Shown here piece after piece: positions 34,663 through 50,116 of a stretch of DNA of 64,000 nt; position 1 is the stretch's first letter; every line of letters begins with the position of its first letter. The DNA lies in NCBI GenBank assembly GCA_016792935.1, contig JAEUJS010000570.1, forward strand, positions 1 through 64,000, read 5' to 3'. This stretch comes from Archangium sp. Its GTDB lineage: Bacteria > Myxococcota > Myxococcia > Myxococcales > Myxococcaceae. The notes beneath the pieces are model-generated. The model saw only the letters and a program-made list of their open reading frames with translations, was not told where the DNA came from and did no database searches. A program made the position numbers and the translations under genes.

Positions 34663-35256
34663 TCAGCTCAAGTGCCGGATGATCAGCTTCGTCATCTCGA
34701 ACATGTTGATTTGCGCCTTGTCGCCGAAGACGCCTTTGAGCGTGGCGTCGACGTTGATCATCCGACGGTTCTCCGCGTCCTGCAGCTTGTGCTTTGCGAT
34801 GTATTGCCAGACACGCTTGATGACTTCGACGCGATTGATCGGTTCGCTTCCGACGACCGCTGCAAGCTGAGGTGACGGCGTCATCTTCTGCATGAATGCA
34901 GCCGCCGCCTTCGAGCGCGACCCGCCCTCATCCGAGTCGTCGTCGTCCGCGTCATCTTCGTCCGCGTCATCTTCGTCCGCGTCATCTTCGTCCGAGTCAT
35001 CTTCGTCCGAGTCGTCGTCGTCCGAGTCGTCGTCGTCCGAGTCGTCGTCGTCCGAGTCGTCGTCGTCCGAGTCATCGTCGTCCTCGTCGCGGTCTTCCTC
35101 TTCACTTGCGAGCGGCGCGGCCGGCTTCGCGGCGACTGGCACTACGGCGATCGGAGAACTCGGAAGCACCGAGCCCGGATACGGAATCAACACGCTCGGG
35201 CCGGCAGCATCGGACGGCACCACATCGAGTTCGGACTCGTTGCGCTTCGTCGCCAT
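34663..35256 (-). CDS. SWIB-domain protein with acidic repeat region
   Basis: The protein has 197 residues. The C-terminal part (about 122-197) is a SWIB/MDM2-type domain with LAAVVG, INRVEVIKRVWQYIAKHKLQD and MFEMTKLIIRHL. In the middle (about 50-110) is a run of tandem Asp/Glu/Ser pentads (DDDDS, DEDDA) with hardly any positive charge. The first 48 residues are Pro/Ala-rich. In eukaryotes SWIB domains belong to chromatin remodelling complexes; bacterial SWIB proteins are thought to act on DNA topology. The acidic tract recalls DNA-mimic or histone-chaperone segments. It follows the TolC-type gene by 27 bases. Confidence 0.88.
   Translation of the reverse strand: MATKRNESELDVVPSDAAGPSVLIPYPGSVLPSSPIAVVPVAAKPAAPLASEEEDRDEDDDDSDDDDSDDDDSDDDDSDDDDSDEDDSDEDDADEDDADEDDADDDDSDEGGSRSKAAAAFMQKMTPSPQLAAVVGSEPINRVEVIKRVWQYIAKHKLQDAENRRMINVDATLKGVFGDKAQINMFEMTKLIIRHLS
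34936..35085 (-). repeat. In-frame 15-base tandem repeat encoding acidic pentads
   Basis: About ten head-to-tail units of 15 bases differ mainly at GTCGTC/GTCATC and CGC/CGA positions. They encode D-D/E-D-D-S/A pentads. Because the unit is a multiple of three, copy number can change without frameshift. Confidence 0.8.
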
Positions 35257-35283: not shown

Positions 35284-36492
35284 TTACTTCTCGGGGTGCG
35301 GACCGGCGACGGCTTCGAGCTCGACCAGCGCACGCGCGAGATCGAGCTGCACCTCGAGTCGCTTGTGCTCGAGATCGATGGCCTGTCGATCCGCCGTGAG
35401 TAACAGCGTCGGATCCAACGAGCCCTCGCTCAACACACGCGCCTGCAACTGCCGATGCGACGCAATCGTCGTCTTGTAGTCGGCCTCGAACGTGCGCCAC
35501 CGGTCCCGCAGACCTTCCGCGCGCGCCGCGAGAATCTGCAGCTCGCTCTTCATCTGCGCCAACTCGGCATCGAGCTGCGCGCGATTGCGAACCGTCAACG
35601 CACGCGCGACATCGAGCTGCGGCGCCGGAGTCACCGCCAACGGCACCGTCAACCCCAACTGAAAGTCATGCGTGTACGGCGCCGGAGCGACCTCGGCGTT
35701 CTGCCGCAACCGCACCTGCACCTCGGGCCACGGCAACCGCTTCGCCGCCAGGTTCTTCTCGTTCGCTTCCGACGCGATGACCTTCGCGCGAATCGCTTCG
35801 AGCTTCGGGTGCTTCTCCAACCGCGCCTCGAGCTCGCTCATGTTCGGCAACGCGGGAGGCTCATCGCCCAGCACCGACGGCAGCGGATTCACCGGCTGCC
35901 CCACGAGGTACGCCACCGACTGCGCCGCCTTGAGCCCCGCGTTCTGCCAACGCAGTTGTTCCTGCCGCGCGTCGGTTTCTCCGAGCTGCGCGAGGTTCAA
36001 ATCAATCTGTGTGCCCTGCCCCTGCTCGAGCCGCTTCTTGAGCACCGTGAGGAGCTTGCGTCGCACCTCGACCGTGTCGCGCGCGAGCTTCTCGTGAGCG
36101 GCGGCTCCGGAGACATCGAGCCACGCGAGCCGCACGTCTCTCACGATGCGCCAGCTCAAGTCGGCGAGCTCGAGCCGCGACTGCAGCAACTTCGCTTCAG
36201 CCGAGTCGGTGCCGTTCTTCCATTCCCACGGATTCGGCGGACGCCACTGCAGCCCCGCGTACCAACGGAACTGCCCCGTCGGGATGTCCTGGACGTCGTT
36301 GAACTGCACGCGGAACTTCGGCATCTCCCAGTCGTGCGCCAGCGGCACCGACGAGCGCGCCACTTCGACCTCGAGCCGCAACACCTTCAGCTGTGCGTTG
36401 CCATCGAGCGCCAGCTTGAGCGCGTCGTCGAGCGTAACCTCCGAGGGAGCAGCAGCGAGGGCGAACAGCACCAGCACGCTAGAACTGCACAT
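35284..36492 (-). CDS. Outer membrane efflux protein (TolC family)
   Basis: The protein has 402 residues, with a signal peptide (MCSSSVLVLFALAAAPSE). The rest shows the TolC layout: two long heptad-rich helical hairpins (about 100-190 and 315-400) and a short strand region with QVRLRQNAEV between them. I chose ATG 36492 because the signal peptide begins there; it overlaps the stop of the HlyD-type gene by 14 bases. It would form the outer-membrane channel for that adaptor. It is the last gene of the nine-gene minus-strand operon. Confidence 0.88.
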   Translation of the reverse strand: MCSSSVLVLFALAAAPSEVTLDDALKLALDGNAQLKVLRLEVEVARSSVPLAHDWEMPKFRVQFNDVQDIPTGQFRWYAGLQWRPPNPWEWKNGTDSAEAKLLQSRLELADLSWRIVRDVRLAWLDVSGAAAHEKLARDTVEVRRKLLTVLKKRLEQGQGTQIDLNLAQLGETDARQEQLRWQNAGLKAAQSVAYLVGQPVNPLPSVLGDEPPALPNMSELEARLEKHPKLEAIRAKVIASEANEKNLAAKRLPWPEVQVRLRQNAEVAPAPYTHDFQLGLTVPLAVTPAPQLDVARALTVRNRAQLDAELAQMKSELQILAARAEGLRDRWRTFEADYKTTIASHRQLQARVLSEGSLDPTLLLTADRQAIDLEHKRLEVQLDLARALVELEAVAGPHPEK

Positions 36493-37504
36493 AGAGCCGC
36501 TCTCCTGCCTGCCAGTGCGAGTCGCCTTCGACCTTGATGACCGCGCGTCGTCCCCAGCGCGGCCACGACGGCGAGAGCCACGAACGCAGCGGCAGCTGTT
36601 CGACCGACGGTCCCACTTCGACCACGGTGCCTTTGATTTTCTCACTCCACAAACCGCGCGACGCGCGCACGGTGAGCGTCAAACCCGGAGCCAGACCACG
36701 CGCACGCTCTTCGGGAACCGTCGCGACGAGATGTCCCGGGCGACCGCGCACCAGCCGCAGCACCTCGACGCCCGAAGGAATGACGTCACCCACCGGATGC
36801 ACGAGCAACGACACGGTGCCGTCGACCGGCGCTCTGATTTCGTACTGCTCGACCTGGAAATCGAGTTGCGCGATGGCCGCCTGCTTCGCCTTCAACGCCT
36901 CACGAAACGGAGCGACCCGCGCTTCGGTCTGCGCGTCGAGCTGGGTGTTCTTGTTCGAGTACAGCTCGGGCATCTGCGCACGGCGGCGCTCGAACACCTG
37001 CACGCGCGCGGCAGCGGCGAGGTAGTTCCTCCGCACTTCTGTCTCCGTCGCGGCGTCGACCAGCTTCTCCGCGCGCAATCGCTCCACGCGCTCGAGCTCG
37101 GTCTTCAAGCTCGCGGCTTCCGAGCGCGCCGCAGACTCGTCGGCGAGCGCAGAAGACGAACGCAGCGTCGCATCGACGACCTGGGTGCGATTGATGGCGA
37201 GCTGCGCGTTCAAGTCGGCCTCGAGCTGCGCGAGCTCGTTCTTCGCGCGCTCCCGCTCGAGCCGAATGGCGCGGTCATCGAGGGTGAAGAGCACGTCGCC
37301 CTGCTTCACCGACTGACCGAGCGCCACGTTGACGGTGAGGATGCGGCCCGTCACCACCGGAGCGACGGCGTGCTCGATGCTCTCGGCGTACGCGGGAATC
37401 GCGGTGCCCGTGAGTCCTCCGCGGTCTTGAATCATGAAGAACCCGGCCGCGAAGAAGAGCGCGGCGACGAACAACTTCATCGTGATGTCGCGAGGGTTGC
37501 GCAT
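36479..37504 (-). CDS. HlyD-family membrane fusion protein
   Basis: The adaptor has 341 residues. An N-terminal membrane anchor (about 9-24) is followed by the first half of a barrel-sandwich (lipoyl) domain with VVTGRILTVNVALGQSVKQGD, a long coiled-coil hairpin (about 75-220) and the second half with YEIRAPVDGTVSLLVHPVGD. The C-terminal beta domain ends in QAGERLYVQF. It should bridge an inner-membrane partner to the TolC-type channel. No ABC or RND pump gene is next to it; the neighbouring membrane gene is DUF4956. The gap to that gene is 6 bases. Confidence 0.92.
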   Translation of the reverse strand: MRNPRDITMKLFVAALFFAAGFFMIQDRGGLTGTAIPAYAESIEHAVAPVVTGRILTVNVALGQSVKQGDVLFTLDDRAIRLERERAKNELAQLEADLNAQLAINRTQVVDATLRSSSALADESAARSEAASLKTELERVERLRAEKLVDAATETEVRRNYLAAAARVQVFERRRAQMPELYSNKNTQLDAQTEARVAPFREALKAKQAAIAQLDFQVEQYEIRAPVDGTVSLLVHPVGDVIPSGVEVLRLVRGRPGHLVATVPEERARGLAPGLTLTVRASRGLWSEKIKGTVVEVGPSVEQLPLRSWLSPSWPRWGRRAVIKVEGDSHWQAGERLYVQF

Positions 37505-37510
37505 GCGCGT

Positions 37511-38161
37511 TCAGACTTCGAGCGAGTCGTCCTGCAGCAAGAGCGAAGCGTCGGCCGCTCCCACGTTCGGCAGCTCAGCGAGCAGCGCCGCCTGCGCCGG
37601 AGGGCCCGAGAGCCGCAGCTGCCACGTCTGCTCCGCGCCACCATCGGTTCCGAGCGAGCGCGACGAAGAGAGCATCGCGCGCGAGGTGTGCCTGGCGAGC
37701 ACCGCGGGCAACGAGGTCAGCGCCGTGGCGTTCACCTTCACGCGCAGCACGGCGGACACGCCGCGACGAGAGCCGAAGTCAGAAAACGTCTGAAAGAGAA
37801 TGGCGACGCTGAAGAGACCGGTCGACAGCAGCGCGATGCTCCACGCCCCGACGCCGCACGCGACGCCGACGGCGAGCGTCATGAACACGAACATCAGGTC
37901 GCGCGTGTCCTTGATGGTGCTGCGCATCTGCACGAGGTTGACGGCGCCGAAGATGCCGATGCCGCGCGCGATGGAATCGCCGACGCACAACATGACCGCG
38001 GCGCTCGCGAGGCCCGACAGCGCAATCGTCTGCGCGAAGCCCTTCAGGTACGAAACGCCCTGGTAGGTCGCGGTGTAGAGCGCGGACAACGCGAACGAGA
38101 GGCCGAGGGCCAGCGCGAGGCTGGACGCGGCCGTGATGATGTCGAAGTCACCCGGATTCAT
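37511..38161 (-). CDS. DUF4956-family membrane protein
   Basis: The protein has 216 residues. Four hydrophobic segments occupy the first 125 residues, with GIGIFGAVNLVQMRSTIKDTRDLMFVF-like arrangement (the Arg-Ser-x-x-Lys-Asp-x-Arg-Asp loop is the family hallmark), followed by a cytoplasmic ferredoxin-like domain of about 90 residues. DUF4956 genes usually stand next to VTC-domain and CotH-kinase genes. Here VTC is directly upstream across a 73-base gap that contains CTGATCAT and may hold an internal promoter. Confidence 0.88.
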   Translation of the reverse strand: MNPGDFDIITAASSLALALGLSFALSALYTATYQGVSYLKGFAQTIALSGLASAAVMLCVGDSIARGIGIFGAVNLVQMRSTIKDTRDLMFVFMTLAVGVACGVGAWSIALLSTGLFSVAILFQTFSDFGSRRGVSAVLRVKVNATALTSLPAVLARHTSRAMLSSSRSLGTDGGAEQTWQLRLSGPPAQAALLAELPNVGAADASLLLQDDSLEV

Positions 38162-38234
38162 GCGTGAGTCACGTCATTGTGTCAGCGGAATGCGAGGACT
38201 GATCATTTCTGGCCGAATCATATTGCTGCTCGCT

Positions 38235-39029
38235 TCAGGCGGCGTCGCTCGCGAAGAATGGGTCTCGACGCGCCTCGATGGCCGCTGCGACGTATTTGCT
38301 GAATGAAAGGCGGTACGGCCCCAGAATCTGCACGACCTGCCCGAGCCACCACGGCCGCGACTCACGGAACTTCACCTCGACGAGTCCCTTCGGCTTGTCG
38401 TCTCCACCGCCGATGTGGCGCCACAGCCCCTCGCGCGGAGTCAGAAACGACGGCCCCCGCGTCGGCTGCCACGCGATGTCGGTGTCCACCGTGAGTCGCA
38501 CGTCGATGTCCTTCTCCACTGCGCGGTACGCCGCTCTCTTCGCCCGCACCAACAGCTTCGGCTCTGCCTGACACCGCAGCGCGAGATATTGGAAATTCTG
38601 CATCGCCTCGTTGCCCGCCACCGAGGGAGGCAACGTCTGCGCGAGGTCGGGGATGAACTTCACGCTGTCTTCCAGCCCGAGCACCGCGCGCTTCTTCATC
38701 ACCACCAGGTTCTGGCGGCGCTTGATTTCGAAGAAGCAGTCGCCCTTCGGCTCGAGCCCGTAATACCGGACGCGCAGCTTGATGCGGTCAGGCGAGCCGC
38801 TGACGTGTTGCTCGAGAAACGTGAAGCGCGGCGAATCGAAGTACAGCGAGGTGTTCACCTGCGACGCACCGGTCTTTCCGGGCTCCCGCCCCTCGGCCAG
38901 GACCTTCTGCTTCGCGACCTCGTCTTCCTGCATGAAGCCGTCGAGCACACCGAGCGCCGCTTCGATGCGCGACATCGGCGCGAGGTATTTGAACTCGAAC
39001 CGCTCGAAGCGTTGAACCGACTCGCTCAT
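38235..39029 (-). CDS. VTC-domain polyphosphate-polymerase-like protein
   Basis: The protein has 264 residues and consists of one VTC tunnel domain. The order of conserved basic and acidic residues is clear: RFEFKYLA, NTSLYFDSP, IKLRVRYYG, FFEIKRR, a Lys-rich helix, GLVEVKF and SFSKYVAA. In yeast this fold makes polyphosphate from ATP; in bacteria VTC genes sit with DUF4956 and CotH-type kinases and their product is less certain. It starts at ATG 39029, 4 bases after the dikinase-like lipoprotein gene, so the two are almost surely co-expressed. Confidence 0.92.
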   Translation of the reverse strand: MSESVQRFERFEFKYLAPMSRIEAALGVLDGFMQEDEVAKQKVLAEGREPGKTGASQVNTSLYFDSPRFTFLEQHVSGSPDRIKLRVRYYGLEPKGDCFFEIKRRQNLVVMKKRAVLGLEDSVKFIPDLAQTLPPSVAGNEAMQNFQYLALRCQAEPKLLVRAKRAAYRAVEKDIDVRLTVDTDIAWQPTRGPSFLTPREGLWRHIGGGDDKPKGLVEVKFRESRPWWLGQVVQILGPYRLSFSKYVAAAIEARRDPFFASDAA

Positions 39030-39033
39030 GCGC

Positions 39034-41076
39034 TCACTGGCCCCGGCCCGGGTATGGCCGCGCTTGCTTGATGTAGAGCGTGGGGCTCGCGGGCGTCGCG
39101 TCGTCGTCGAACTTGAACTCCACGTCCATCGCGTACCAACCCAGATTGCCCGCCGCCGGCCCGTACGCCGCGCTGAAGCGCTTGTGAATCGCGTCGAGCG
39201 CGCGCCCCAGTTGGTAGGTCTGCGTGGTGGTCAGCACGTTGGTGTTGGGCGCGATGAGGTTGCTGTGCGCGAGGAAGGTGATGGGCTGGTTGGGCTGCGA
39301 GAAATAATAGAGGAATTGATCAGACGTGACGCCAGGGGGCGGAGCGACGACCTCGGCGTCACCTCCGTATTGAACGTTCACATAGAACGCAGGGTCGAGG
39401 CCCGCCGCGTCGAAGGGATTCGCGGTGACGGCGACGCCGTTCGCCTCTTCGTCGGGGAAGTTGGTGTGAATCAACAACGCCATGCCGACGCTGAATTGAT
39501 CAATCCCGTAGAAGTTGCGCTCTTCGAAGGTGCGGAAGCTCCACGCGCTGGCGTACGTCTGGCGAATCGCGTCGAGCACGTCGGGCACGTCGAGCGGGTC
39601 TCCGGTGTGTGACTCGTAACAACCCGCGCACGGAAACCCCTCGAGGTCTTCGGAGTTGGTCGAGGTGCGGAAGCGCAGCTTCTTCCCCGCGTACGTCGCG
39701 GTCGCGGCCTTGGCCAAAATCGCGTCGACGAGCGTCTGCCGCACCGTGCCCGCCATGATGGCCGTGTGCAGCTCGTTCAACTTCTGTACCCGCACCGCCG
39801 AGTCCGTGCGGAACGCGGGGTCAGCGAGGTAGCCCTGCACCAGCGTGTAGAGCCCGTTGTCCTGCATGAACTCGTCGTAGTGCTTCATCGGCACCACGAA
39901 GGCGGGCTTCACCGGCACCGTCGCGTCTCCGATGCGCTTGAGAATCGAGTACTGCGCGGCCTTGCCACCGTACGCGCGCGCCGAGTCCTTCAACGCCGCA
40001 CGCAATGTTCCACCATCGGTCGGGTCCGGCGTGCAGTCTTCGACGTCAAACAACCCACTCGGCCCGAGGTCCAACGGCGGCAACACCACCGGCGTCGGTT
40101 GATTCGCCAGCCAGAACGCTTCGGCTTCGGCCTGCGTCACTTCGACGGCGCTCCACTCGAGCGCACCGACCGTGAGCTTCACGAGTTTTCCGTCGAGCGC
40201 GCGCAGCGTCGCGTTGGTCAGCGCGGCCTTGAGGCCCATGTTCGGTGTGCCGCGATTCGCGGAGAGCACGTTGATGTGAGACAGCGGCGTCTGGAAGGTC
40301 TGCGTGACGAGCCCGCGCACCACCGAGATGTCGTTGGGCGCTTCATCGAGCACCAGGATGTCCTGACTCGACGGCGGACTGGCCGACACTTCAGCCGCGG
40401 TCGAGAACCGCAACCGGCCCACTCCGGTCGCGAGCGTCAGCGGCTGGTAGTCGATGCCCGCATAGAGCTCGTCGGTGGTCATGATGCGAATCGACGACGG
40501 CAACTTCTTCGCCTCGAGCGCGATGGCGTCGGACGTCGGGTGGAAGACGAGCTGCGCGCCGAAGTACGAGTGCTCGCGCACCGCTTCGAACAACGTCTGC
40601 ATCATCGTCGCGCTCGCCGTGTCGTACGGAGAGAACTCCAGCGCGAAGACCTGCGGGCCCTCGTAGTAGCTGACGGCCGCGAGGATGAAGCGGCGGTCGG
40701 GCGAGAAGTACTCCGTCTGGTTGAACTGCGAGAGCGCAGGCACGACGGGCAACGCTCCGCCCGAGAGATGCGTCGACACGAACTCGTAGTGCACCTGGTA
40801 CATCACGCTGTTCTGGAAATAGAGCGCGTTGGAATCGGCGGTATCGAGCACCACCTTCACCGAGCGCGCTCCGGGGATGCTGGCGCTCACCGGCACCGAC
40901 GCGAGCACGGTGTAATCGGTGAGGCAGCCGAGCTCGCGCAACGATTCGGGAGATGCAGTGGTCGCCGCGCATTCCCACGCGCGCGACGGGCCCGCATCGA
41001 CACCGCCATCAGCGTTCATCGGCGCGCTGCACGCCGACAGAACAAGACAACACAGAGAGAGACTCTTGAAATTCAT
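39034..41076 (-). CDS. Lipoprotein with phosphohistidine-swivel and ATP-grasp domains (PPDK/GWD-like)
   Basis: The protein has 680 residues, with a lipobox LVLSAC (Cys 16), so it is predicted outside the cytoplasm. Residues 230-320 resemble the phosphohistidine domain of dikinases, with the candidate His 267 in PLSHINVLSAN. Residues 365-675 resemble the ATP-grasp domain of pyruvate phosphate dikinase and glucan water dikinase: GGKAAQYSILK, RFRTSTNSEDLEGFPCAGCYES near 468-489, VGMALLIHTNF, a TANP turn, and IKQARPY at the end. The swivel domain before the ATP-grasp domain, and the lack of a PEP barrel, match the glucan/phosphoglucan water dikinase order rather than PPDK. ATG 41076 overlaps the upstream stop (ATGA). 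Confidence 0.85.
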   Translation of the reverse strand: MNFKSLSLCCLVLSACSAPMNADGGVDAGPSRAWECAATTASPESLRELGCLTDYTVLASVPVSASIPGARSVKVVLDTADSNALYFQNSVMYQVHYEFVSTHLSGGALPVVPALSQFNQTEYFSPDRRFILAAVSYYEGPQVFALEFSPYDTASATMMQTLFEAVREHSYFGAQLVFHPTSDAIALEAKKLPSSIRIMTTDELYAGIDYQPLTLATGVGRLRFSTAAEVSASPPSSQDILVLDEAPNDISVVRGLVTQTFQTPLSHINVLSANRGTPNMGLKAALTNATLRALDGKLVKLTVGALEWSAVEVTQAEAEAFWLANQPTPVVLPPLDLGPSGLFDVEDCTPDPTDGGTLRAALKDSARAYGGKAAQYSILKRIGDATVPVKPAFVVPMKHYDEFMQDNGLYTLVQGYLADPAFRTDSAVRVQKLNELHTAIMAGTVRQTLVDAILAKAATATYAGKKLRFRTSTNSEDLEGFPCAGCYESHTGDPLDVPDVLDAIRQTYASAWSFRTFEERNFYGIDQFSVGMALLIHTNFPDEEANGVAVTANPFDAAGLDPAFYVNVQYGGDAEVVAPPPGVTSDQFLYYFSQPNQPITFLAHSNLIAPNTNVLTTTQTYQLGRALDAIHKRFSAAYGPAAGNLGWYAMDVEFKFDDDATPASPTLYIKQARPYPGRGQ

Positions 41077-42272
41077 GGCGTCAACGCAAAGCAATAGAAC
41101 CCGCCGTACCCGCCGCCGCTGCCGACGGTGGGGTCATTCGGGTTGGGCGGCCCCATCTCGACGAGGTTCACGCCCGCGCCACAGCCGGCCTCGGTGAGCG
41201 CGTTCATCCAGTTCTGGCCCGAGGGCGCAGGCCACGAGTGACCGACGCGCGGACGCCCGGTGACGCTCGGGTTGGTGCTGTTGGTGGTCCACGACTGGCA
41301 GTTGAAGCTCAGCGTGGTCATGGAGCTCGTGTACCGCTGGCCCGAGCTGTTGGTGCCGGTGAGCATGTCGTGGTTGTCGACCTGCGTTCCGTCAGGCGCG
41401 TGGTTGAGCACGCCGTCTTCGTTGGGGAGGTCGTTGCAGATGGTCGTGTTGCAGCCCGTCGGTCGCGTGGTGAGCGCGTTCGCGAGCGTCATCGCGAAGA
41501 CGCGGCCGTTGCGGTCGTACCAGGGGCCGTTGCCGATGCGGTCGCGCGCGTGCACCACGCCGCCGTCTTCGCCTTGATCCGCCGAGAGGAACGCGCGCCA
41601 GCCCTTCGCGCCGGCGCCGGGCATCGAGAACTCGGCGACCTCGGTGCAAATCTTGTCCGCGCCACGCAGGCCCGCGCCGAGCCCCGTCTCGCCGTAGCGC
41701 AAGTCGCCACCGAAGCCGTTCGCCGAGCCAGAGAGCCGCTGAATCGCCGCGTAGCTGACGACGAAGAAGCTGAAGTTCGGGAGCGCACCACCACCGCCCG
41801 TCGCACCGCCACCGCCCGTCGCTCCACCACCGCCAGTTGCCGAGCCACCACCAGTCGCAGCGCCGCCGCCCGTCGCACCGCCACCACCCGTCGCGCCGCC
41901 ACCCGTTCCACCGCCCGTGACTCCGCCTCCACCGCTTGCCGCGCCGCCGCCGGTCGCAGCGCCACCGCCGGTCGCTGCACCGCCGCCGTTCGCCGCGCCA
42001 CCACCACTCGCCGCGCCGCCACCGTTGCCGCCGCCCGTACCCGTCGCGACGCATCGCTGCGTGACGCACGTCTGCGCGAAGAGCGCGCAGTTCACGCACG
42101 TGTTGCCGCTCGAGCCGCACGCCGTCGCCAGCGTGCCGCCGACGCACTCGTTGCCATCACAGCAACCGGTCGCGCAGTTCTGCGGAGTGCACGAGCCCGT
42201 CGGTGTTCCACACGACGCAGTGACGACGCCAAACGCCAGACCAACGCACGCTGCGAAGACGATTCGGTTCAT
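41073..42272 (-). CDS. Lipoprotein with Gly-rich tether and endostatin-like domain
   Basis: The protein has 399 residues. I chose ATG 42272 since it starts a lipoprotein signal (about 21 residues, ending VTASC). A Cys-rich segment (about ten Cys, to residue 75) is followed by about 80 residues of GGGAAT/GGGSAT units. The C-terminal 210 residues resemble the endostatin/NC10 (C-type-lectin-like) fold: GLRGADKIC, WRAFLSAD, DRIGNGPWYDRNGRVFA, GHSWP and the ending YGGFYCFA. A paralogue lies directly upstream. It may bind polysaccharide or matrix; that is inference from the fold. Confidence 0.78.
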   Translation of the reverse strand: MNRIVFAACVGLAFGVVTASCGTPTGSCTPQNCATGCCDGNECVGGTLATACGSSGNTCVNCALFAQTCVTQRCVATGTGGGNGGGAASGGGAANGGGAATGGGAATGGGAASGGGGVTGGGTGGGATGGGGATGGGAATGGGSATGGGGATGGGGATGGGGALPNFSFFVVSYAAIQRLSGSANGFGGDLRYGETGLGAGLRGADKICTEVAEFSMPGAGAKGWRAFLSADQGEDGGVVHARDRIGNGPWYDRNGRVFAMTLANALTTRPTGCNTTICNDLPNEDGVLNHAPDGTQVDNHDMLTGTNSSGQRYTSSMTTLSFNCQSWTTNSTNPSVTGRPRVGHSWPAPSGQNWMNALTEAGCGAGVNLVEMGPPNPNDPTVGSGGGYGGFYCFALTP

Positions 42273-42282
42273 TGAAGAAGAC

Positions 42283-43254
42283 TCAGGGGGTGAGTGCGAA
42301 GCAGTAGATGCCGCCGTAGCCGCCAGCGCCACCGACGGTGACCGAGCCCATGCCGCCGCCCGTGTCCATGATGTTCACGCCAGCCGCGCAGCCGGGCACG
42401 CGATGCGCCGACATCCAATGCGCGGCGTCGTTGCTGGTCTGCGTTCCACGCGGCCACGAGTGACCGGCCATCGGCCGTGGGCTGCCGGTGGTGCTGGTGC
42501 TCGTCCAGTCGCTGCAGGTCTGACCATCGGCCTGCAGCAGGCCCATGGTGTCGCTGCCGGTCATGGTGTCGTGGTTGTCGATGACCGTTCCGTTGGGCGC
42601 GTGGTTCGGCACGCCGTCTTCATTCGGCAGGTCGCGCGCGATGGCGGTGTTCGCTCCCGTCGGTCGCTGCGTGAGCAGATCGCTCTTCGTCATCGCGACG
42701 ACGCGGCCGAGGCGGTCGTACCAGGGACCGCTGCCGATGCGGTCGATGGCGTTGACGCGCTGACCGTTGGCGTCGGCGTTGACGCTCAAGAACGCGCGCC
42801 ACTGCTTCACCGAGCTGCCGGGCATGCTCCGCTCCGCGATGGTCTCGCAGATTTTGTCCGCGCCGCGCAGGCCGGCGCCGGCGCCGGTCTCTCCGAAGCG
42901 CAGGTCACCGCCGAAGCCGTTGCTGCTGTTCGCGAGCTGAAGCATCGCGGCCATGCTGGTGACGAAGAAGCTGAAGTTGGGGAGCGTGCCCGCGTCGGCG
43001 CTGCCTCCACCCGTCGCGCTCCCGCCGCCCGTCGCGCTGCCGCCGCCCGTCGCGCTGCCGCCGCCCGTCGCGGAGCCACCGCCCGTCGCGGAGCCACCGC
43101 CCGTCGCGGAGCCACCACCCGTCGCGCCACCGCCCGCGCTCGAGCCGCCTCCGGTCGCAGAGGAGCCGCCGCCCGCGCCGCCATCTTCTGAGGCAACGAC
43201 CGCGTCACACGCGCTGATCACCACGCTGATCAACACCACGGCTCGAAGGCGCAT
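42283..43254 (-). CDS. Lipoprotein with Gly-rich tether and endostatin-like domain (paralogue)
   Basis: The protein has 323 residues. The start ATG 43254 is preferred over GTG 43257 because GGAG lies about 6 bases ahead of the ATG. A lipobox VVISAC leads to a tether of GGGSAT units (about 30-85), then an endostatin-like domain with GLRGADKIC, WRAFLSVN, DRIGSGPWYDRLGRVVA and YGGIYCFA. It is closely related to the next gene's product but lacks its Cys-rich segment, so a tandem duplication followed by change of the N-terminus is likely. Confidence 0.8.
   Translation of the reverse strand: MRLRAVVLISVVISACDAVVASEDGGAGGGSSATGGGSSAGGGATGGGSATGGGSATGGGSATGGGSATGGGSATGGGSATGGGSADAGTLPNFSFFVTSMAAMLQLANSSNGFGGDLRFGETGAGAGLRGADKICETIAERSMPGSSVKQWRAFLSVNADANGQRVNAIDRIGSGPWYDRLGRVVAMTKSDLLTQRPTGANTAIARDLPNEDGVPNHAPNGTVIDNHDTMTGSDTMGLLQADGQTCSDWTSTSTTGSPRPMAGHSWPRGTQTSNDAAHWMSAHRVPGCAAGVNIMDTGGGMGSVTVGGAGGYGGIYCFALTP
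43010..43130 (-). repeat. In-frame 18-base tandem repeat encoding GGGSAT
   Basis: About seven head-to-tail units with small third-position changes encode the tether of the endostatin-like lipoprotein. A less regular relative, mixing GGGAAT, GGGGAT and GGGSAT units, lies at about 41785-42025 in the paralogous gene. Confidence 0.75.
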
Positions 43255-43264
43255 CACGCTCTCC

Positions 43265-44233
43265 TCACTGACAGCGAAGATCCGTCTGACACGTCTGACC
43301 CATCGGGCACTCGGAGTCGTCGGTGCACGACGTGAGCCCCGGAATCGTGAGCCCCACTTCGGTTCCTGACACGACCTTGAAGTCCACGCGACCGGTGGAC
43401 GACTTCTTGATGCGGCGCACCTTCATGGTCGGGAAGCCCGACACGCCGAGGTTGATCAACCGCGTGGTGAGCGTGCCGCCGATGGTGAGCGAGCCGTCGT
43501 CAGCGGTGTCGCAGAGAATCTGTCCGCGCAGGCCGCCGTGGTGGCTGATGTCGATCTCCACTTCGATGCGCGCGGCGGTGGCGGTGCTCCCCGCGGTCCA
43601 CTGCAAGTCGAGCGCGGTGTTCGGAGCGAGCGCCCACGTGCCGGCATCACTCGCCTGCGAGAGCGTGATGGGCGCGACGCCGGTGCCGACGACGGTGAAC
43701 GGACCGACCGCGCCGCTGCCCGACGCGGTGACGCCGAGCAGTGCGCCATCGGTGAACGGAGGAATCGAGAGCGTCACGCTCGCCGGCGCCTGGTAGCCGT
43801 TGTTGATGGGCGTCATCTCGAACGGCGTGACGACGCCGCCGACGAGCAAGCCGCTGGCGCTCAAGGTGCCCATGTTGCGCGAGGTCGGGTACGCCTGACA
43901 CACGTTGTCTTCGACGCACGCCGCGCTGCCACCACACGGCGTCGCGCAGAACGGAACGCGCGGGGTCTCGACGCGGCAGTCTCCGTCGACGAGATCAGCG
44001 GTGAAGAGGGTCGTGAGTGGAGTCGGCCCGTCGTAGACCTTGCCGAAGAACGACGACGAGTCTCCGAACTGCGAGACGGTGTGGAGAATCTGCAACGTGC
44101 CGACCACCTGCCCTGCGTCGGTCGTCATCATCGTTCCTGCGTCGCTGCCAGCGTCGGTTCCGGCGTCGGTGCCCGAGGGCGTACCGCACGCGCTGATCAA
44201 CACCACGCCGGCGGCAATGACTTCAAGGCGCAT
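43265..44233 (-). CDS. Lipoprotein of unknown function with Cys-rich ends
   Basis: The protein has 322 residues. The lipobox is VLISAC. A short Asp/Ala/Gly/Thr linker follows, then a beta-rich region with CATPCGGSAACVEDNVC (about 95-112) and a C-terminal CTDDSECPMGQTCQTDLRC motif that is a known Cys-rich repeat of myxobacterial surface proteins. The middle (about 130-290) resembles an immunoglobulin or jelly-roll-like beta domain. The gene starts inside the end of the lamin-tail gene (11-base overlap) and is followed by the endostatin-like pair. Confidence 0.75.
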   Translation of the reverse strand: MRLEVIAAGVVLISACGTPSGTDAGTDAGSDAGTMMTTDAGQVVGTLQILHTVSQFGDSSSFFGKVYDGPTPLTTLFTADLVDGDCRVETPRVPFCATPCGGSAACVEDNVCQAYPTSRNMGTLSASGLLVGGVVTPFEMTPINNGYQAPASVTLSIPPFTDGALLGVTASGSGAVGPFTVVGTGVAPITLSQASDAGTWALAPNTALDLQWTAGSTATAARIEVEIDISHHGGLRGQILCDTADDGSLTIGGTLTTRLINLGVSGFPTMKVRRIKKSSTGRVDFKVVSGTEVGLTIPGLTSCTDDSECPMGQTCQTDLRCQ

Positions 44234-44750
44234 TCTTCGCTCCGGGTGAACGTCGCTGCACTTCGAACATCGGAGCGCCGTCGTACGTGCGCGCCCACGA
44301 GGAACCAGTCGACGCCGCGTTCGCCGGGTACGCCTGCTGCGCGACGGTGCCGTTCTGCGCGTCGAGCAAGGTGAGCGTGTCGCCGTTGCCCTGCGAGATG
44401 CCGAACTCTCCGCGCACGCACGGCGTCACCGTCGTCGGGCAATCGCTCTCGAGGAGCACGGTGAAGTACCCGCGCGCCGCGATGGTGGTGCCGTTGCCGA
44501 AGCGCAGCGCGGTCGCGTAGCGGATGCCCGCGTCGTCCATGTCGGTGAGCCCAAAGCCCGAGAGGTCCATCTCCGAGTCGGTCGCGTTGAAGAGCTCGAC
44601 GAAGTCAGCGCCCGTACCCGCGAGCTCGTTGATGACCAGCCCCGCGTCGGAGCACGTGCCGCTGGTGCAGGTCGTGGGCATCGGCATTCCGCAGTTCATG
44701 AGGGAAATGAGGCTCAGGCTGGCGACAGCGACGACGAGCAGGATTCGCAA
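44223..44750 (-). CDS. Lipoprotein with lamin-tail domain (LTD)
   Basis: The protein has 175 residues. The start is TTG 44750, supported by AAGGAG 6 bases ahead. After the lipobox LMNC, residues 37-175 form a lamin-tail domain: LVINELAGTGADFVELFN, the strand LSGFGLTD, and the closing RRSPGAKN. In bacteria LTD modules are common in secreted nucleases and CotH-kinase proteins, where they probably mediate surface attachment. It is the first gene of the nine-gene minus-strand operon. Confidence 0.88.
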   Translation of the reverse strand: MRILLVVAVASLSLISLMNCGMPMPTTCTSGTCSDAGLVINELAGTGADFVELFNATDSEMDLSGFGLTDMDDAGIRYATALRFGNGTTIAARGYFTVLLESDCPTTVTPCVRGEFGISQGNGDTLTLLDAQNGTVAQQAYPANAASTGSSWARTYDGAPMFEVQRRSPGAKNAP

Positions 44751-44860: not shown

Positions 44861-46165
44861 GTGAGTGGTTCGCGGTGGTACGGCCACCGTGTGCGACTTG
44901 TCATGGCCATCGCGCTGGTGGTGACGGTGGTGCTGGTGCGCGTAGCACCCGTGGGTTTGCATGGGACGGACGCGGCCTGCTACGCGCACATTGCACAGGC
45001 GCTCGCTGCCAAGCCGGTGACGGATTGGGCTGACGTGCGGTGGCTGGCGGACGAGCCGTTCTATGAGCACCCACCGCTCGGGCTGTGGCTCGAGGGTGGT
45101 TGGTTCGCGGTGTTCGGCGCCAGCGCGGCGAGCGCGGTGGCATGGGCTCGTGTGTTGGCCCTGTTGCTCGCCCTGTTCGTCGGGGTGCTGGGCTTTCGCC
45201 TCGGCGGTCGCGAGGGAGCTGCGTTGGCGTTGGTCGGCCTCTCGAGCCTCGCGACGTTTCAGCGTGAGGCGGAGAACCCGATGCTCGAGCTCCCGCTCGC
45301 GGTGGCGTGCGCGGCGGCCTTCGTGGCTTGTGAAGCGCTGCCTCGATTGGGGAGGGGCGCCGTGCTCGCCTTCGCAGCGTGTGCGACCGTGGCGTTTTGG
45401 ATCAAAGGCGTCGTCGCGTTTGCGCTGGTCGGAGGACTGGTGTGGGCCTGGTGGCGCGGAACCCCCCGCGGCCGGATTCTCGTGGCGGCCTCGGTGAGCG
45501 CTGCCCTGGCGTCTTTCACCGTCCTCGCGTTCGAGTTCGCGCGCTGGCGCGGGGGGCTGCCCCCATTCTTCCCTGACTACTTCGCCAAACACGTGCTGGT
45601 CGCGTTCGCGGAGGGCCGGCACACGGTGGAGCCCAGTCCCCTCTTCCATGTGGCCACCCTGCTCGACTGGCACCTTCCGGCGCTGCTCGCGTTGCCGGTG
45701 GTTGGGTTGAGGTGGCGCGCGACGCCAGGCATGCGACCCTTCGCGGTCCTCGGCGTGGCGTGGCTGGTGTGCGTGGTCGTCCCCTTTTCGCTCGCGCAGC
45801 AGAAGAGCGCCTGGCACTTGAACGTGCTGATGCCCGGTGACGCCCTGCTGGTCGGGGCAGCGTTGATGTGTCTGCCTGCGCCCGTGCTGCGGTTCACCAG
45901 TCCTGTGCTGGCGGCGTGGATGGTCGCCTGGGTGGTCGTCGAGTACCGAACAGCGGCCCAGCCGTCGGCGCGACAGGTCGCGGTGCGGGCGATGGCCACG
46001 GTGCCCGCGCCTCCCGCAGGCAGCGCGGTGCAGAACTGCTCGGTGCTCACTGACTGGCCGGCCCGACACCTGTTTGCATTCCATTGGGGTGCGCGCGTCG
46101 TGCCGTGCGAGGGAGACGGTGCGTGGCGCTTCGACGGGAAAGAGCTTCGCCGCGCCTCGCCCTGA
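44861..46165 (+). CDS. GT-C-type glycosyltransferase (ArnT/PMT-like) membrane protein
   Basis: The protein has 434 residues and about ten membrane helices. After the first helix comes the short extracytoplasmic loop HGTDAACYA with the catalytic-type Asp, and then YEHPPLGLWLEGGWF, the EHPPL motif of ArnT and related undecaprenyl- or dolichyl-phosphate sugar transferases. Such enzymes move a sugar from a lipid carrier to a target on the periplasmic side. The start is GTG 44861; an ATG at 44906 is possible but would cut the first residues. The target is unknown. The gene lies opposite the lamin-tail operon. Confidence 0.85.
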   Translation: MSGSRWYGHRVRLVMAIALVVTVVLVRVAPVGLHGTDAACYAHIAQALAAKPVTDWADVRWLADEPFYEHPPLGLWLEGGWFAVFGASAASAVAWARVLALLLALFVGVLGFRLGGREGAALALVGLSSLATFQREAENPMLELPLAVACAAAFVACEALPRLGRGAVLAFAACATVAFWIKGVVAFALVGGLVWAWWRGTPRGRILVAASVSAALASFTVLAFEFARWRGGLPPFFPDYFAKHVLVAFAEGRHTVEPSPLFHVATLLDWHLPALLALPVVGLRWRATPGMRPFAVLGVAWLVCVVVPFSLAQQKSAWHLNVLMPGDALLVGAALMCLPAPVLRFTSPVLAAWMVAWVVVEYRTAAQPSARQVAVRAMATVPAPPAGSAVQNCSVLTDWPARHLFAFHWGARVVPCEGDGAWRFDGKELRRASP

Positions 46166-46183: not shown

Positions 46184-46633
46184 TCAGGGCACGGCGCAGG
46201 TGCCTTCGAAGCCATCCGGCCCGCGACCGCACCCTGCGTGACAGCCAGTGCAGCGCGTGGAGTTGGTCTCTTTCACATCGATGCGGCGATCAGGAGCGCT
46301 CACGGTTTCCCAGAGCCAGCCATTGACCCCAGCAGCTTCGCTGCGACGAGTCATGACGGTCCACTTCAACACCGGGCCGGAGCAGCTCACGTCTCCGAAG
46401 TCGCGCTCTTCTTTCAAGACGACGGCGCCTTCTGGAAATCCTGCGTCGCGATCTCGATACGGACTCAGCGCGCTCGGAGAGGCGAGCACGCGGATCAAGT
46501 GTGAGTCGTGTTCAGAGCTCGGCCGGCAGTTGCGAACTTCGACGTAGCTCTTCGCGTAGTCGGCGGGGAACGACGGCTCCGGCTCGCACGCTGCCGAAGC
46601 CATCGCTGCGATGATCAACAGCAGACGTCTCAC
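46184..46633 (-). CDS. Cytochrome P460-like lipoprotein
   Basis: The protein has 149 residues and starts at GTG 46633, overlapping the NHL gene's stop (GTGA). The lipobox is MASAAC. The remainder has the P460/c'-beta pattern: a YRDRDAGFPEGAVVLKEE strand pair, LKWTVMTR, WLWETV and a covalent heme site CTGCH (near residue 131). A c-type heme protein in the periplasm or outer membrane is predicted. It is the last gene of a four-gene operon of lipoproteins. Confidence 0.8.
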   Translation of the reverse strand: MRRLLLIIAAMASAACEPEPSFPADYAKSYVEVRNCRPSSEHDSHLIRVLASPSALSPYRDRDAGFPEGAVVLKEERDFGDVSCSGPVLKWTVMTRRSEAAGVNGWLWETVSAPDRRIDVKETNSTRCTGCHAGCGRGPDGFEGTCAVP

Positions 46634-47889
46634 TTCAGCTTCACGACGCGAATGCGGTTGTTGCCGGTGTCGGAGATCTTCAGCAGCCCGTTCACGAACT
46701 CGAGACCGTAGGGCCGCTTGAGCAACGCGTCCTTCGCGGGGCCGTCATCGCCGGTGGTGCCCGAGGTGCCGCACGTGCCGACCACGGTGTGAATCACGCC
46801 CGCGGCGTCGATGGAGCGCACGCAGTGGTTGTACGTGTCGGTGAAGTAGAGCGTGCCGTCGTCTCCGAAGGCGAGGTCGACCGGGTTGTTCAACTTCGCG
46901 CTGGTCGCCGGGCCTTCGTCTCCCTCGAAGCCGCGCTGCGCAGCGCCACCCACCGGAGCCGTTCCCGCGAAGCGATGCACCACGCCCTGCGTGTCGATCT
47001 TTCTGATCAGCGCGTTCGAGGTGTCGGCGAAGTACAGATTGCCCGCCGCGTCGAACGCGATGCGACCGCCCGGGTCCGCCGACTGACCGAACGGCTGCGC
47101 GATGCGCATGTCGGCCGCGGGCCCTTCGTCGCCGCCGTAGCCCGGCGTGCACGGCTTGCCACACTGTTCCATCGGCACGCCGCACGTGGTCTTGCCCGAG
47201 CCCATCGGACACGCGACCGGAGCGACGCCCATCGCGCACGCGCCTGGACCCGCAGGCATCGGCGCGTCGATGACGCAGCGACCCGCATAGAGATGAATGT
47301 TGCCGCTGGGGTCGATGCGACGCAGCACCATGTTCGCCTGGTCCATCACGATGAGGTCACCGCTCGGAGCGAACGCCAGCGAGGTCGGCAGGTCGAGCAC
47401 CGAGGTGAGCGCGGGCCCGTTGTCTCCGAAGTATGCGCGGCGGCCGTCACCACAGGTGTCGACGATGGCGTTGGTGGTGAGATCGATCTTCCGAATCTTC
47501 GAGTTGTGCCACGCCGCGATGAGCATGTTGCCCTGCGCGTCGAACGCCATGCCCGTGGGGTGATTGAAGTCGGAGTTCGCTGGATCATCGAGCGTGCCGC
47601 CCAGCTCTCCGCGACCGGCGACGGCGAGCATCTTGCCGTCGGTGGTGATTTTGCGGATGCGGTGGTTGTTCCAGTCGAGCACGTAGGTCGTGCCATCGCT
47701 CGAGGTGAGCGTGTCTTGCGGCAGCGACAGCTCGGCGTCGATCGCGGGGCCGTCATCGCCGGAATAGCCGTTGGTGCCAGCGCCTCCGATGGTGCAGATG
47801 TTGCCGACCTTCGATTGATCACACGGCTTCGCGGCGGGACACGCCGTGAGGACGAGCGAGCAGAGAGCAAGCGAGCGCAGGCTGATCAT
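46630..47889 (-). CDS. NHL-repeat lipoprotein
   Basis: The protein has 419 residues, with lipobox LVLTAC. It contains about six NHL repeats with GDDGPA/GDNGPA loops and NHRIRKI, NSKIRKI, NALIRKI strands, giving a six-bladed propeller. A Cys-rich insertion of about 50 residues (CAMGVAPVACPMG ... CGKPC) sits between blades 3 and 4. NHL propellers bind proteins or carbohydrates. ATG 47889 overlaps the previous stop (ATGA) in the TGATCAT palindrome at 47883. Confidence 0.9.
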   Translation of the reverse strand: MISLRSLALCSLVLTACPAAKPCDQSKVGNICTIGGAGTNGYSGDDGPAIDAELSLPQDTLTSSDGTTYVLDWNNHRIRKITTDGKMLAVAGRGELGGTLDDPANSDFNHPTGMAFDAQGNMLIAAWHNSKIRKIDLTTNAIVDTCGDGRRAYFGDNGPALTSVLDLPTSLAFAPSGDLIVMDQANMVLRRIDPSGNIHLYAGRCVIDAPMPAGPGACAMGVAPVACPMGSGKTTCGVPMEQCGKPCTPGYGGDEGPAADMRIAQPFGQSADPGGRIAFDAAGNLYFADTSNALIRKIDTQGVVHRFAGTAPVGGAAQRGFEGDEGPATSAKLNNPVDLAFGDDGTLYFTDTYNHCVRSIDAAGVIHTVVGTCGTSGTTGDDGPAKDALLKRPYGLEFVNGLLKISDTGNNRIRVVKLK

Positions 47890-49046
47890 TTCGCCACCCG
47901 GAGGATGCGGCTGTTGATGGTGTCCGACACGTAGAGGTTCCCGTCCTTGTCGAACTCGATGGCGAAGGGCCGCTTCAGCTTCACCTTCGTCGCCGCGAGC
48001 CCCTCTTCCTTGTCGAGCCCGAACTCGCCGTTGCCGACGACGGTGGTGATGATGCCAGTGTCGAGATCGATCGCGCGAATGCGCTGGTTGTCGGTGTCAG
48101 CGACATAGAGCCGACCGTCGGGACCGAACTCGAGATCGCGCGGGTTGTTGAGCTGTGCCTGAAGCGCGGGGCCGTTGTCTCCCGCGAAGCCGCCCGTGCC
48201 GTCGCCCGCGATGGTGGTGATGACGTTGGTGGTGAGGTCGATGGATCGAATGCGGTGGCTGAGCGTCTCGCTCACGTAGAGCGTGCCGTCCTTGAGGGCC
48301 AGGCCGCCCGACGGCTCGGGGTTGGAGCCCGCCTCGAAGTCGAACGAGCACATCAGCGCGGGGCCGTTGTCTCCGGCGTACATCTTCATGCCGTTGCCGG
48401 CGACGGTGCTGATCACGCCAGTCGTTCCGTCGATTTTCCGAATGCGGAAGTTCTGCTGGTCGAGAATGTACTGGTTGTTCTGCGCGTCCACTTCGAGCGC
48501 TTTGGGCTGACGAAACACCGCGGCACCCGGCGTCACCATCGCGCCGTCTCCGGCGAAACCAGCGCCACCACCGGCGACGATGCCGACGCGATCCGTGCCG
48601 GGGAGAATCTTGCGCAGCTTGTGGTTGTGCCACGCCATGATCAGCATCGTCCCGTCGGAGAGCTGCGCGAGATCAGTCGGGTGGTTGAGCTTCACCTCGG
48701 TGCCCAGCGCTCCGTTGGGAGCGCTCTCTTCCATGGTGCCGGTGCCGTCGCCCGGGAAGATGGGGTCGACCCAACCGACCACCGTCTTCACCTTGCCGTC
48801 CTTCTCGACCTTGCGAACGAGGTGGTTGTTCCAGTCGATGAACCACGGCGTGCCGTCGGCCGCGAACTTCATGTCCATCGTCCAGTAGAGCTTCGTCTCG
48901 AGGCGATCGAGCCCGTCGCCGTTGAACCCATAGACACCAGGCACGCCGAGCCAGGTACAGGCGCGCTGCGACTCGTCACACGGCGGGGCACACGCCACGA
49001 CAGTCATGGTGGCGACCATCAGAAAGATGAGTCGAAAACGCGTCAT
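47886..49046 (-). CDS. NHL-repeat lipoprotein (paralogue)
   Basis: The protein has 386 residues, with a signal ending in VVACAPPC. It has about six NHL repeats, the clearest being GFNGDG, DWNNHLVRKV, HNHKLRKI, QNFRIRKI, SHRIRSI, NQRIRAI and NSRILRV with AGDNGPA/GFAGDG loops. It resembles the next gene but lacks the Cys-rich insertion, so the two look like tandem duplicates. ATG 49046 overlaps the previous stop (ATGA). Confidence 0.9.
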   Translation of the reverse strand: MTRFRLIFLMVATMTVVACAPPCDESQRACTWLGVPGVYGFNGDGLDRLETKLYWTMDMKFAADGTPWFIDWNNHLVRKVEKDGKVKTVVGWVDPIFPGDGTGTMEESAPNGALGTEVKLNHPTDLAQLSDGTMLIMAWHNHKLRKILPGTDRVGIVAGGGAGFAGDGAMVTPGAAVFRQPKALEVDAQNNQYILDQQNFRIRKIDGTTGVISTVAGNGMKMYAGDNGPALMCSFDFEAGSNPEPSGGLALKDGTLYVSETLSHRIRSIDLTTNVITTIAGDGTGGFAGDNGPALQAQLNNPRDLEFGPDGRLYVADTDNQRIRAIDLDTGIITTVVGNGEFGLDKEEGLAATKVKLKRPFAIEFDKDGNLYVSDTINSRILRVAK

Positions 49047-50047
49047 TGGAGCTCCGGAAGGTGCTCACCGCGGTGAAGAAGCACGCCATTTTTCAGGGGA
49101 AACGTCAGCACATCGCCGCCCACAGCCCAGACGCCCCCGGTGGGGTCGACCCACACCGCGTGCAACGACTGGTCCACGTTGAAGCCGGTCTTCTCTTCGC
49201 GCCAACCGCCGTCGGCGTTCGCAAAGACGGAACCATATTGTCCCACCGCGAAGCCTGAGGTGTCGCTCGTCAACGCGACTCCGACGAGCGAGGGAGCGTC
49301 GGGCGGGCTCGCGTTCTTCCACTCGCCGTTGATCAACTCGACGAGCTTGCCGCTGCCGAAGCCCCCCACCGCGACGACGCGATTGCCGAGCGCGTGCACC
49401 GTGAAGAGCGTCTCTCCGGTGTTCGCGGAGAGCTGCGTGAACGTCGTGCCGTCCCACCTGAGCGTCTTGCCCATCGAGCCGACGAACCACACGTCGTTCG
49501 CGCTGGTGCCCCACACTTTCCAGAGCGCGTCGGTGTCGACGAGTCCCGCGGGAAAATTCGGAGCGTTCGCCCACGTTCCGTTCTGCAGATGCCACGCGAA
49601 GGCGCCGCGTGCTCCGCCGCTCTCGGCGCCGGTGGCCCACACGTCGTCAGCGCTCACGCCCCAGATTCCGGTGACGACCGCGGTGCCGGGCGTCGTCATG
49701 CGCGTGAACGTGCCGTTCTCGTAGCGGAGAATGAGTCCGCCTTCGCCTCCGAGGAAGAGCGGGCCATTTGCGAAGCCGAAGACCCACCACAGGTCACCCG
49801 TCGCTCCGGTCTCGAGGCGCGTCCACGCGGCGCCGTCGTAGTGCACGACCATCGGGCCTTTGCCGTCTCCAGTGTCGGAGCCGACGGCCCACACATCACT
49901 CGCAGTAGTGCCCCACACGGAGAGCAGCGCGTTCGGCAGCTTCTTCGCGACCTGCTGCCACTTCGGTGCAGGCGGAGGTGGAGGACAGGCGACCAGGAAC
50001 ACGACACTCGCGATGATCAGGAGGAGTCTCAGAGCGGCGGCATCCAC
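49043..50047 (-). CDS. Beta-propeller lipoprotein with WGTSxxDVWxVG repeats
   Basis: The protein has 334 residues. It starts at GTG 50047, with lipobox FLVAC. Repeats with VWGTTASDVWAVG, IWGVSADDVWATG and VWGTSANDVWFVG are a hallmark of BNR/kelch-like propellers that myxobacteria encode in large numbers. The stop overlaps the following NHL gene. As first gene of the four-gene operon it probably sets expression of two NHL propellers and a heme protein. The promoter must lie in 50048-50116, shared with the divergent fusion gene. Confidence 0.88.
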   Translation of the reverse strand: MDAAALRLLLIIASVVFLVACPPPPPAPKWQQVAKKLPNALLSVWGTTASDVWAVGSDTGDGKGPMVVHYDGAAWTRLETGATGDLWWVFGFANGPLFLGGEGGLILRYENGTFTRMTTPGTAVVTGIWGVSADDVWATGAESGGARGAFAWHLQNGTWANAPNFPAGLVDTDALWKVWGTSANDVWFVGSMGKTLRWDGTTFTQLSANTGETLFTVHALGNRVVAVGGFGSGKLVELINGEWKNASPPDAPSLVGVALTSDTSGFAVGQYGSVFANADGGWREEKTGFNVDQSLHAVWVDPTGGVWAVGGDVLTFPLKNGVLLHRGEHLPELQ

Positions 50048-50076
50048 TCACGGCGACAGGTGCTTCGCAAGCGCGC

Positions 50077-50093
50077 TTCCCTCTCCCTCGGGG
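50077..50093 (+). repeat. Partial copy of the CCCTCTCCC hairpin family
   Basis: The left arm and loop of the repeat seen at 838-876 are present in the divergent promoter region between 50048 and 50116, but the right arm is lost. Confidence 0.5.
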
Positions 50094-50116
50094 TGCATTG
50101 GCCATACAGTGCGCAT

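Follow-up and report, generated by a model that had tools for sequence, protein, structure and literature searches.

CotH-type kinases, VTC-domain proteins and DUF4956 membrane proteins are widespread genomic neighbours without an agreed function. The Pel genes of streptococci, clostridia and bifidobacteria come with genes for CotH, a polyphosphate polymerase and DUF4956 (PMC7112168). In S. intermedius, Pel level and aggregation change when the DUF4956 or the CotH homologue is deleted; outside Pel loci, the authors of that study did not encounter the trio (PMC12345266). In yeast, the VTC complex makes polyphosphate and, in a coupled process, translocates it through a basic channel in the membrane, and VTC4 R264A/R266A/E426N is inactive (PMC9911596). 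Here, we analysed an operon in a 64,000-nt stretch of Archangium sp. (GCA_016792935.1, contig JAEUJS010000570.1, positions 1-64,000; "the window" denotes this whole stretch). On the minus strand, from 44750 to 35284, it encodes an LTD-domain lipoprotein, the lipoproteins Lp8, Endo-B and Endo-A, a dikinase-like lipoprotein (DIK), VTC, DUF4956, a HlyD-type adaptor and a TolC-type channel. Comparison with related loci suggests a recurring myxobacterial gene set by which phosphate polymers may be made inside the cell and used or attached outside.

The locus family resembles the Gram-positive Pel-operon trio (PMC7112168; SIR_1594-1592 in PMC12345266) in that CotH, VTC and DUF4956 occur together, CotH is secreted, and DUF4956 has four transmembrane segments followed by a C-terminal ACT-like domain. 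It differs in adding a surface lipoprotein dikinase, outer-membrane conduits, the Lp8, Endo and LTD lipoproteins, and fusions that join LTD to DIK and HlyD to a phytase-like domain; moreover, the window's own operon lacks CotH. The family also shows the trio in genomes without a PelG gene: PelG was found in none of the 11 tested genomes with a DIK locus, and a linkage of the myxobacterial locus to Pel was rejected on this result. We found the dikinase locus described nowhere in the literature searched.

Catalytic residues of the dikinase lipoprotein and the VTC protein

In DIK (P0005; 39034..41076, minus strand), a lipoprotein signal and an N-terminal domain of no assigned family precede a swivel-type domain carrying His-273 and a C-terminal ATP-grasp domain (residues 375-681; Pfam PPDK_N, E 8e-22). 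Its likely start is the ATG at 41076, which has a 4-bp overlap with the Endo-A stop and replaces the initially called start at 41094. The preliminary description of the operon, made from the sequence alone, had proposed a swivel-His plus ATP-grasp architecture. Although the swivel-His domain has no Pfam match, this proposal is supported by the predicted model and by the histidine, which is invariant among 92 homologues together with K378, R476, E482, Q677 and R679. Foldseek searches with the model matched the ATP-grasp domain to rifampin phosphotransferase and PEP synthase (phosphoenolpyruvate synthase; 5hv6, TMt 0.77), and the swivel domain weakly to the phosphoryl carrier domain of PPDK (2fm4). 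Judged by these residues, DIK holds an intact ATP-grasp site and a phospho-His.

DIK shares the ATP-grasp fold (TMt 0.77 being to the ATP domain of rifampin phosphotransferase) and a swivel-type phospho-His domain with rifampin phosphotransferase, PEP synthase and PPDK. It differs from them in its reversed domain order, in lacking a substrate or PEP domain and in being extracytoplasmic. Neither the Pfam scan nor the model contains a PEP/pyruvate TIM barrel, and with the histidine preceding the ATP-grasp domain an identity as PEP synthase or PPDK was ruled out. The alpha-glucan, water dikinase GWD places its His domain first and the ATP-grasp domain after it. A C-terminal position of the GWD ATP-binding domain is documented (PMC5575247). 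GWD and PWD thus share with DIK the phospho-His domain ahead of a C-terminal ATP-grasp domain and the lack of a PEP-binding barrel, whereas DIK is a bacterial lipoprotein with an N-terminal domain of its own and no starch-binding CBM20/45 by Pfam scan. We therefore describe it as a predicted GWD-type dikinase in layout and do not class it as GWD, since it has no CBM. In one otherwise conserved locus (L050, G078), DIK is split over several frames and is possibly a pseudogene.

The VTC protein (P0004; 38235..39029, minus strand; Pfam E 8e-31) adjoins DUF4956 (37511..38161, minus strand; E 2.5e-7), and each is the only gene of its kind in this genome. A search of PDB sequences with the single VTC protein gave no match, while the profile of DIK-linked VTC proteins matched VTC4 of yeast at 5e-26 and VTC2/VTC3 far more weakly. 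None of the eight VTC4 tunnel residues compared has been lost: R86, R88, K103, R165, R178, E218, K220 and K245 of P0004 correspond to VTC4 R264, R266, K281, R361, R373, E426, K428 and K458. The VTC label of the preliminary description is thereby confirmed, and P0004 is of the catalytic, VTC4-like type by its residues, with polyphosphate synthesis as its predicted activity. As in the yeast complex, a polymerase with these tunnel residues is partnered with a membrane protein; unlike in yeast, there is no SPX domain, the partner is DUF4956 instead of Vtc1-type helices, and an outer-membrane conduit is added. DUF4956 is a MgtC-like inner-membrane protein with a C-terminal soluble domain. In its relatives, R80 and D88 of a membrane-proximal motif are invariant, which is compatible with a conduit, short of proof.

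Linkage of DIK to VTC, CotH and outer-membrane partners

To score linkage, we took the 80 best named DIK loci, 79 of them with a full DIK, and counted neighbours within 10 kb. Lp8 accompanied DIK in 63 of the 79 loci, Endo in 49, VTC in 28, DUF4956 in 21, HlyD in 19, LTD in 17, CotH in 16, a family termed F6 in 13, TolC in 12 and a Porin_O_P-type protein (PorinOP) in 11. With about 100 VTC genes in 145 genomes of the order, VTC would fall this close by chance in roughly 0.1-0.3% of cases. The linkage is not due to the choice of the best 80 loci, because of the 25 genomes shown by whole-genome search to have a canonical DIK, 9 likewise carry VTC within 10 kb; in Polyangium, the sole VTC gene of a 12.7-Mb genome sits in the DIK locus. 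The linked VTC proteins include several subclasses with 18-31% identity to that of the window. Distant DIK paralogues within the order have no VTC nearby by the same scoring, and two deep DIK homologues in other families (G149, G193) do. These counts support the earlier proposal of an extracytoplasmic phosphotransfer and export gene set, in that the set is conserved and VTC and DUF4956 recur beside the dikinase lipoprotein. Reduced clustering of six-frame open reading frames (ORFs) near DIK yielded sporadic two-component and Ser/Thr-kinase families, with no extra recurring partner and no recurring glycosyltransferase family.

The gene order of the operon is identical in two sister genomes (G050, G052), and a third (G133) matches up to its contig end. 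In G131, transcription of LTD-VTC-DUF4956-HlyD-TolC and of Lp8-Endo-DIK diverges, and the operon is therefore made up of two sub-modules; other Archangiaceae carry Lp8-Endo-DIK alone at the corresponding site. At least 17 state changes of the VTC/DUF4956 neighbourhood occur along the DIK tree, and the association has thus been repeatedly broken or re-formed.

The preliminary description had noted that no CotH gene is visible in the operon and had proposed that the dikinase lipoprotein replaces CotH. A Pfam scan confirmed the absence from all nine genes, and CotH is likewise missing from the loci of close sister genomes. However, the genome retains four CotH matches, all on other contigs (three of these genes were inspected and have neither VTC nor DUF4956 beside them), and CotH is a recurrent neighbour of DIK elsewhere. 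It is present in 10 of 32 loci that also hold VTC or DUF4956 and, over 76 scored loci, is more common with VTC/DUF4956 (10/33) than without (4/43). CotH lies in the DIK locus, often in the same operon, in Polyangium (Lp8-Endo-DIK-CotH-DUF4956-HlyD-TolC, with VTC-CotH alongside), Sorangium (Lp8-Endo-DIK-DUF4956-HlyD-(TolC)-CotH), Pyxidicoccus (CotH-VTC-PorinOP-Tmk-DUF4956-Lp8-Endo-DIK-F6) and several deep lineages, and a single operon in L152 reads DIK-PorinOP-CotH-CotH-VTC-DUF4956. As CotH is adjacent to DIK in the same conserved locus, an arrangement that the preliminary description had itself named as fatal to it, the replacement idea fails. CotH is merely absent from the locus of this clade, not replaced by DIK.

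The HlyD-type periplasmic adaptor (36479..37504, minus strand; HlyD_3, E 3.8e-16) and the TolC-type outer-membrane channel (35284..36492, minus strand, start moved from 36645; OEP, E 7.6e-21) complete the operon, which holds no ABC, MFS or RND pump gene for them; DUF4956 may be the inner-membrane part of the exporter. HlyD is linked to VTC/DUF4956 in an independent-pairs test (median p 0.03). Among the 32 loci with VTC or DUF4956, 15 hold HlyD/TolC, 10 hold PorinOP and none holds both (hypergeometric 3e-4, relatedness not corrected for), as if HlyD-TolC and the Porin_O_P-type protein were alternative outer-membrane routes. Several HlyD adaptors carry a C-terminally fused phytase-like/DUF3616 beta-propeller, for example L075:14550-16562 (+) and L104:3197-5314 (+). 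A thymidylate-kinase-like (Tmk-like) P-loop kinase with C-terminal AWxMRE-type repeats recurs beside PorinOP in DIK loci (L121:4442-6289 (+), L107:13221-14948 (+) and L097), Pyxidicoccus included.

A phosphate-polymer and phosphotransfer reading and its alternatives

We tentatively read the locus as an envelope phosphate-polymer and phosphotransfer system in which DIK would act beside CotH, not in its stead, and regard this reading as quite possible while somewhat short of probable. In the cytoplasm, VTC would use ATP to build the phosphate chain, and by analogy with the yeast VTC complex this chain may be fed through the inner membrane by DUF4956. The product would cross the outer membrane by HlyD-TolC here and by the Porin_O_P-type protein in sister loci. 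At the surface, DIK, plus CotH kinases where present, would pass phosphoryl groups to an envelope acceptor, which the Lp8, Endo and LTD lipoproteins may hold or present, as scaffold or as acceptor. Gene content, catalytic residues, lipoprotein signals and linkage were read directly from the sequence; that the exported product is polyphosphate is what we infer from them.

Several points weigh against this reading. The roles of all members are predicted from sequence, and the conduit role of DUF4956 is an analogy. The extracytoplasmic ATP source for DIK and CotH is left unexplained. Many DIK loci, including most of those in Archangiaceae, hold Lp8-Endo-DIK without VTC within 10 kb. Most Pfam scores for Porin_O_P exceed the cut-off by a narrow margin, which makes this label tentative, and for a phylogeny-corrected test of the exclusion between HlyD/TolC and PorinOP the independent pairs are too scarce. 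Finally, no change in aggregation was reported for the deletion of the S. intermedius VTC homologue (PMC12345266).

The strongest alternative is that polyphosphate is not exported at all: VTC and DUF4956 would be regulators or carry out another triphosphate-tunnel reaction, and HlyD-TolC, together with a pump encoded elsewhere, would export a surface polysaccharide or protein phosphorylated by DIK and CotH. The association of the Gram-positive trio with Pel genes (PMC7112168), the altered Pel amount in DUF4956 and CotH deletions (PMC12345266) and the resemblance of the DIK domain order to GWD-type glucan dikinases all point in this direction. In contrast, PelG is missing from all 11 locus-bearing genomes tested, no glycosyltransferase family recurs among the neighbours and the VTC4 catalytic residues are all kept, and we consider this alternative a serious one that is nevertheless rather unlikely.

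Lp8-Endo-DIK as a surface lipoprotein set and LTD-VTC-DUF4956-HlyD-TolC as a polyphosphate export set could also be neighbours by accident, as the divergent transcription of the two groups in G131 and the many Archangiaceae loci without VTC would allow. However, the linkage recurs with varied VTC subclasses and outer-membrane partners at a frequency far above the VTC background. In addition, the modules interleave in L080 (DUF4956-HlyD-Lp8-Endo-DIK-TolC), and LTD is fused to DIK in L153. Here, the first gene of the array (L153:12625-15690 (-)) joins an LTD domain (69-174) to a dikinase PPDK_N domain (703-1011) and is followed by PorinOP-F6-CotH-VTC-DUF4956. An accidental neighbourhood is unlikely in our view.

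An extracellular energy supply is more doubtful still. VTC-DUF4956 would export polyphosphate through TolC or the Porin_O_P-type pore, and surface DIK would make ATP from polyphosphate and AMP or use its histidine to relay phosphate that powers CotH-type kinases. If true, this would be a bacterial answer to the phosphate-donor question for extracellular kinases, and we give it little credence. Least credible is that DIK replaces CotH as the one surface kinase in an otherwise CotH-type system, which fits the operon and its close sister loci and is already refuted as a general rule by the 16 of 79 loci that DIK and CotH share, at times within one operon.

The locus family makes two questions testable. 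One is the possible export of polyphosphate by bacterial VTC enzymes, the other the phosphate supply of secreted kinases. Culturable named carriers of the locus are Polyangium, Sorangium, Nannocystis, Pyxidicoccus and Archangium.

Operon layout, remaining lipoproteins and flanking genes

All nine ORFs are present on the minus strand as the preliminary description had outlined, and all have a coding-like third-position GC content. The largest intergenic gap is the 73 bp between VTC and DUF4956, and the remaining neighbours overlap or lie at most 7 bp apart. Internal starts are likely for three genes (Endo-A, DIK and TolC). The domain labels LTD, dikinase ATP-grasp, VTC, DUF4956, HlyD and TolC were all backed by the Pfam scan.

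The first gene (44223..44750, minus strand) encodes the LTD-domain lipoprotein (E 2e-12) and starts with a TTG behind an AAGGAG ribosome-binding site. It is followed by Lp8 (43265..44233, minus strand), a Cys-rich lipoprotein without a Pfam family. The AlphaFold2 model of Lp8 (pLDDT 87.6) is all-beta with weak FnIII/Ig-like matches at low TM-scores, and its family profile has no match among PDB sequences. Endo-B (42283..43257, minus strand) is a lipoprotein with a Gly-Ser linker and a DUF1554-like, possibly endostatin/CTL-like, domain; its paralogue Endo-A (41073..42272, minus strand, start moved from 42332) shares 60% identity with it. Of the two "endostatin-like" lipoproteins described earlier, the pair of paralogous lipoproteins stands, while the name rests on a DUF1554 match in Endo-B alone that is below the cut-off (E 1.7e-4); the Endo family profile matched no PDB sequence, endostatin included.

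Upstream, the operon is bounded by a divergent gene for a membrane protein on the plus strand (44861-46165). Beyond it, two tandem NHL-repeat (teneurin-NHL-like) proteins are encoded at 46630-49046 (-), at least the first of which is a lipoprotein, and a 736-aa protein in which residues 336-435 form an internal adenylate-kinase domain is encoded at 49394-51604 (+). Just downstream of the operon, the product of the gene at 34663-35256 (-) has a SWIB/MDM2 domain (E 1.2e-25) preceded by a long tract of Asp/Ser-Asp repeats.

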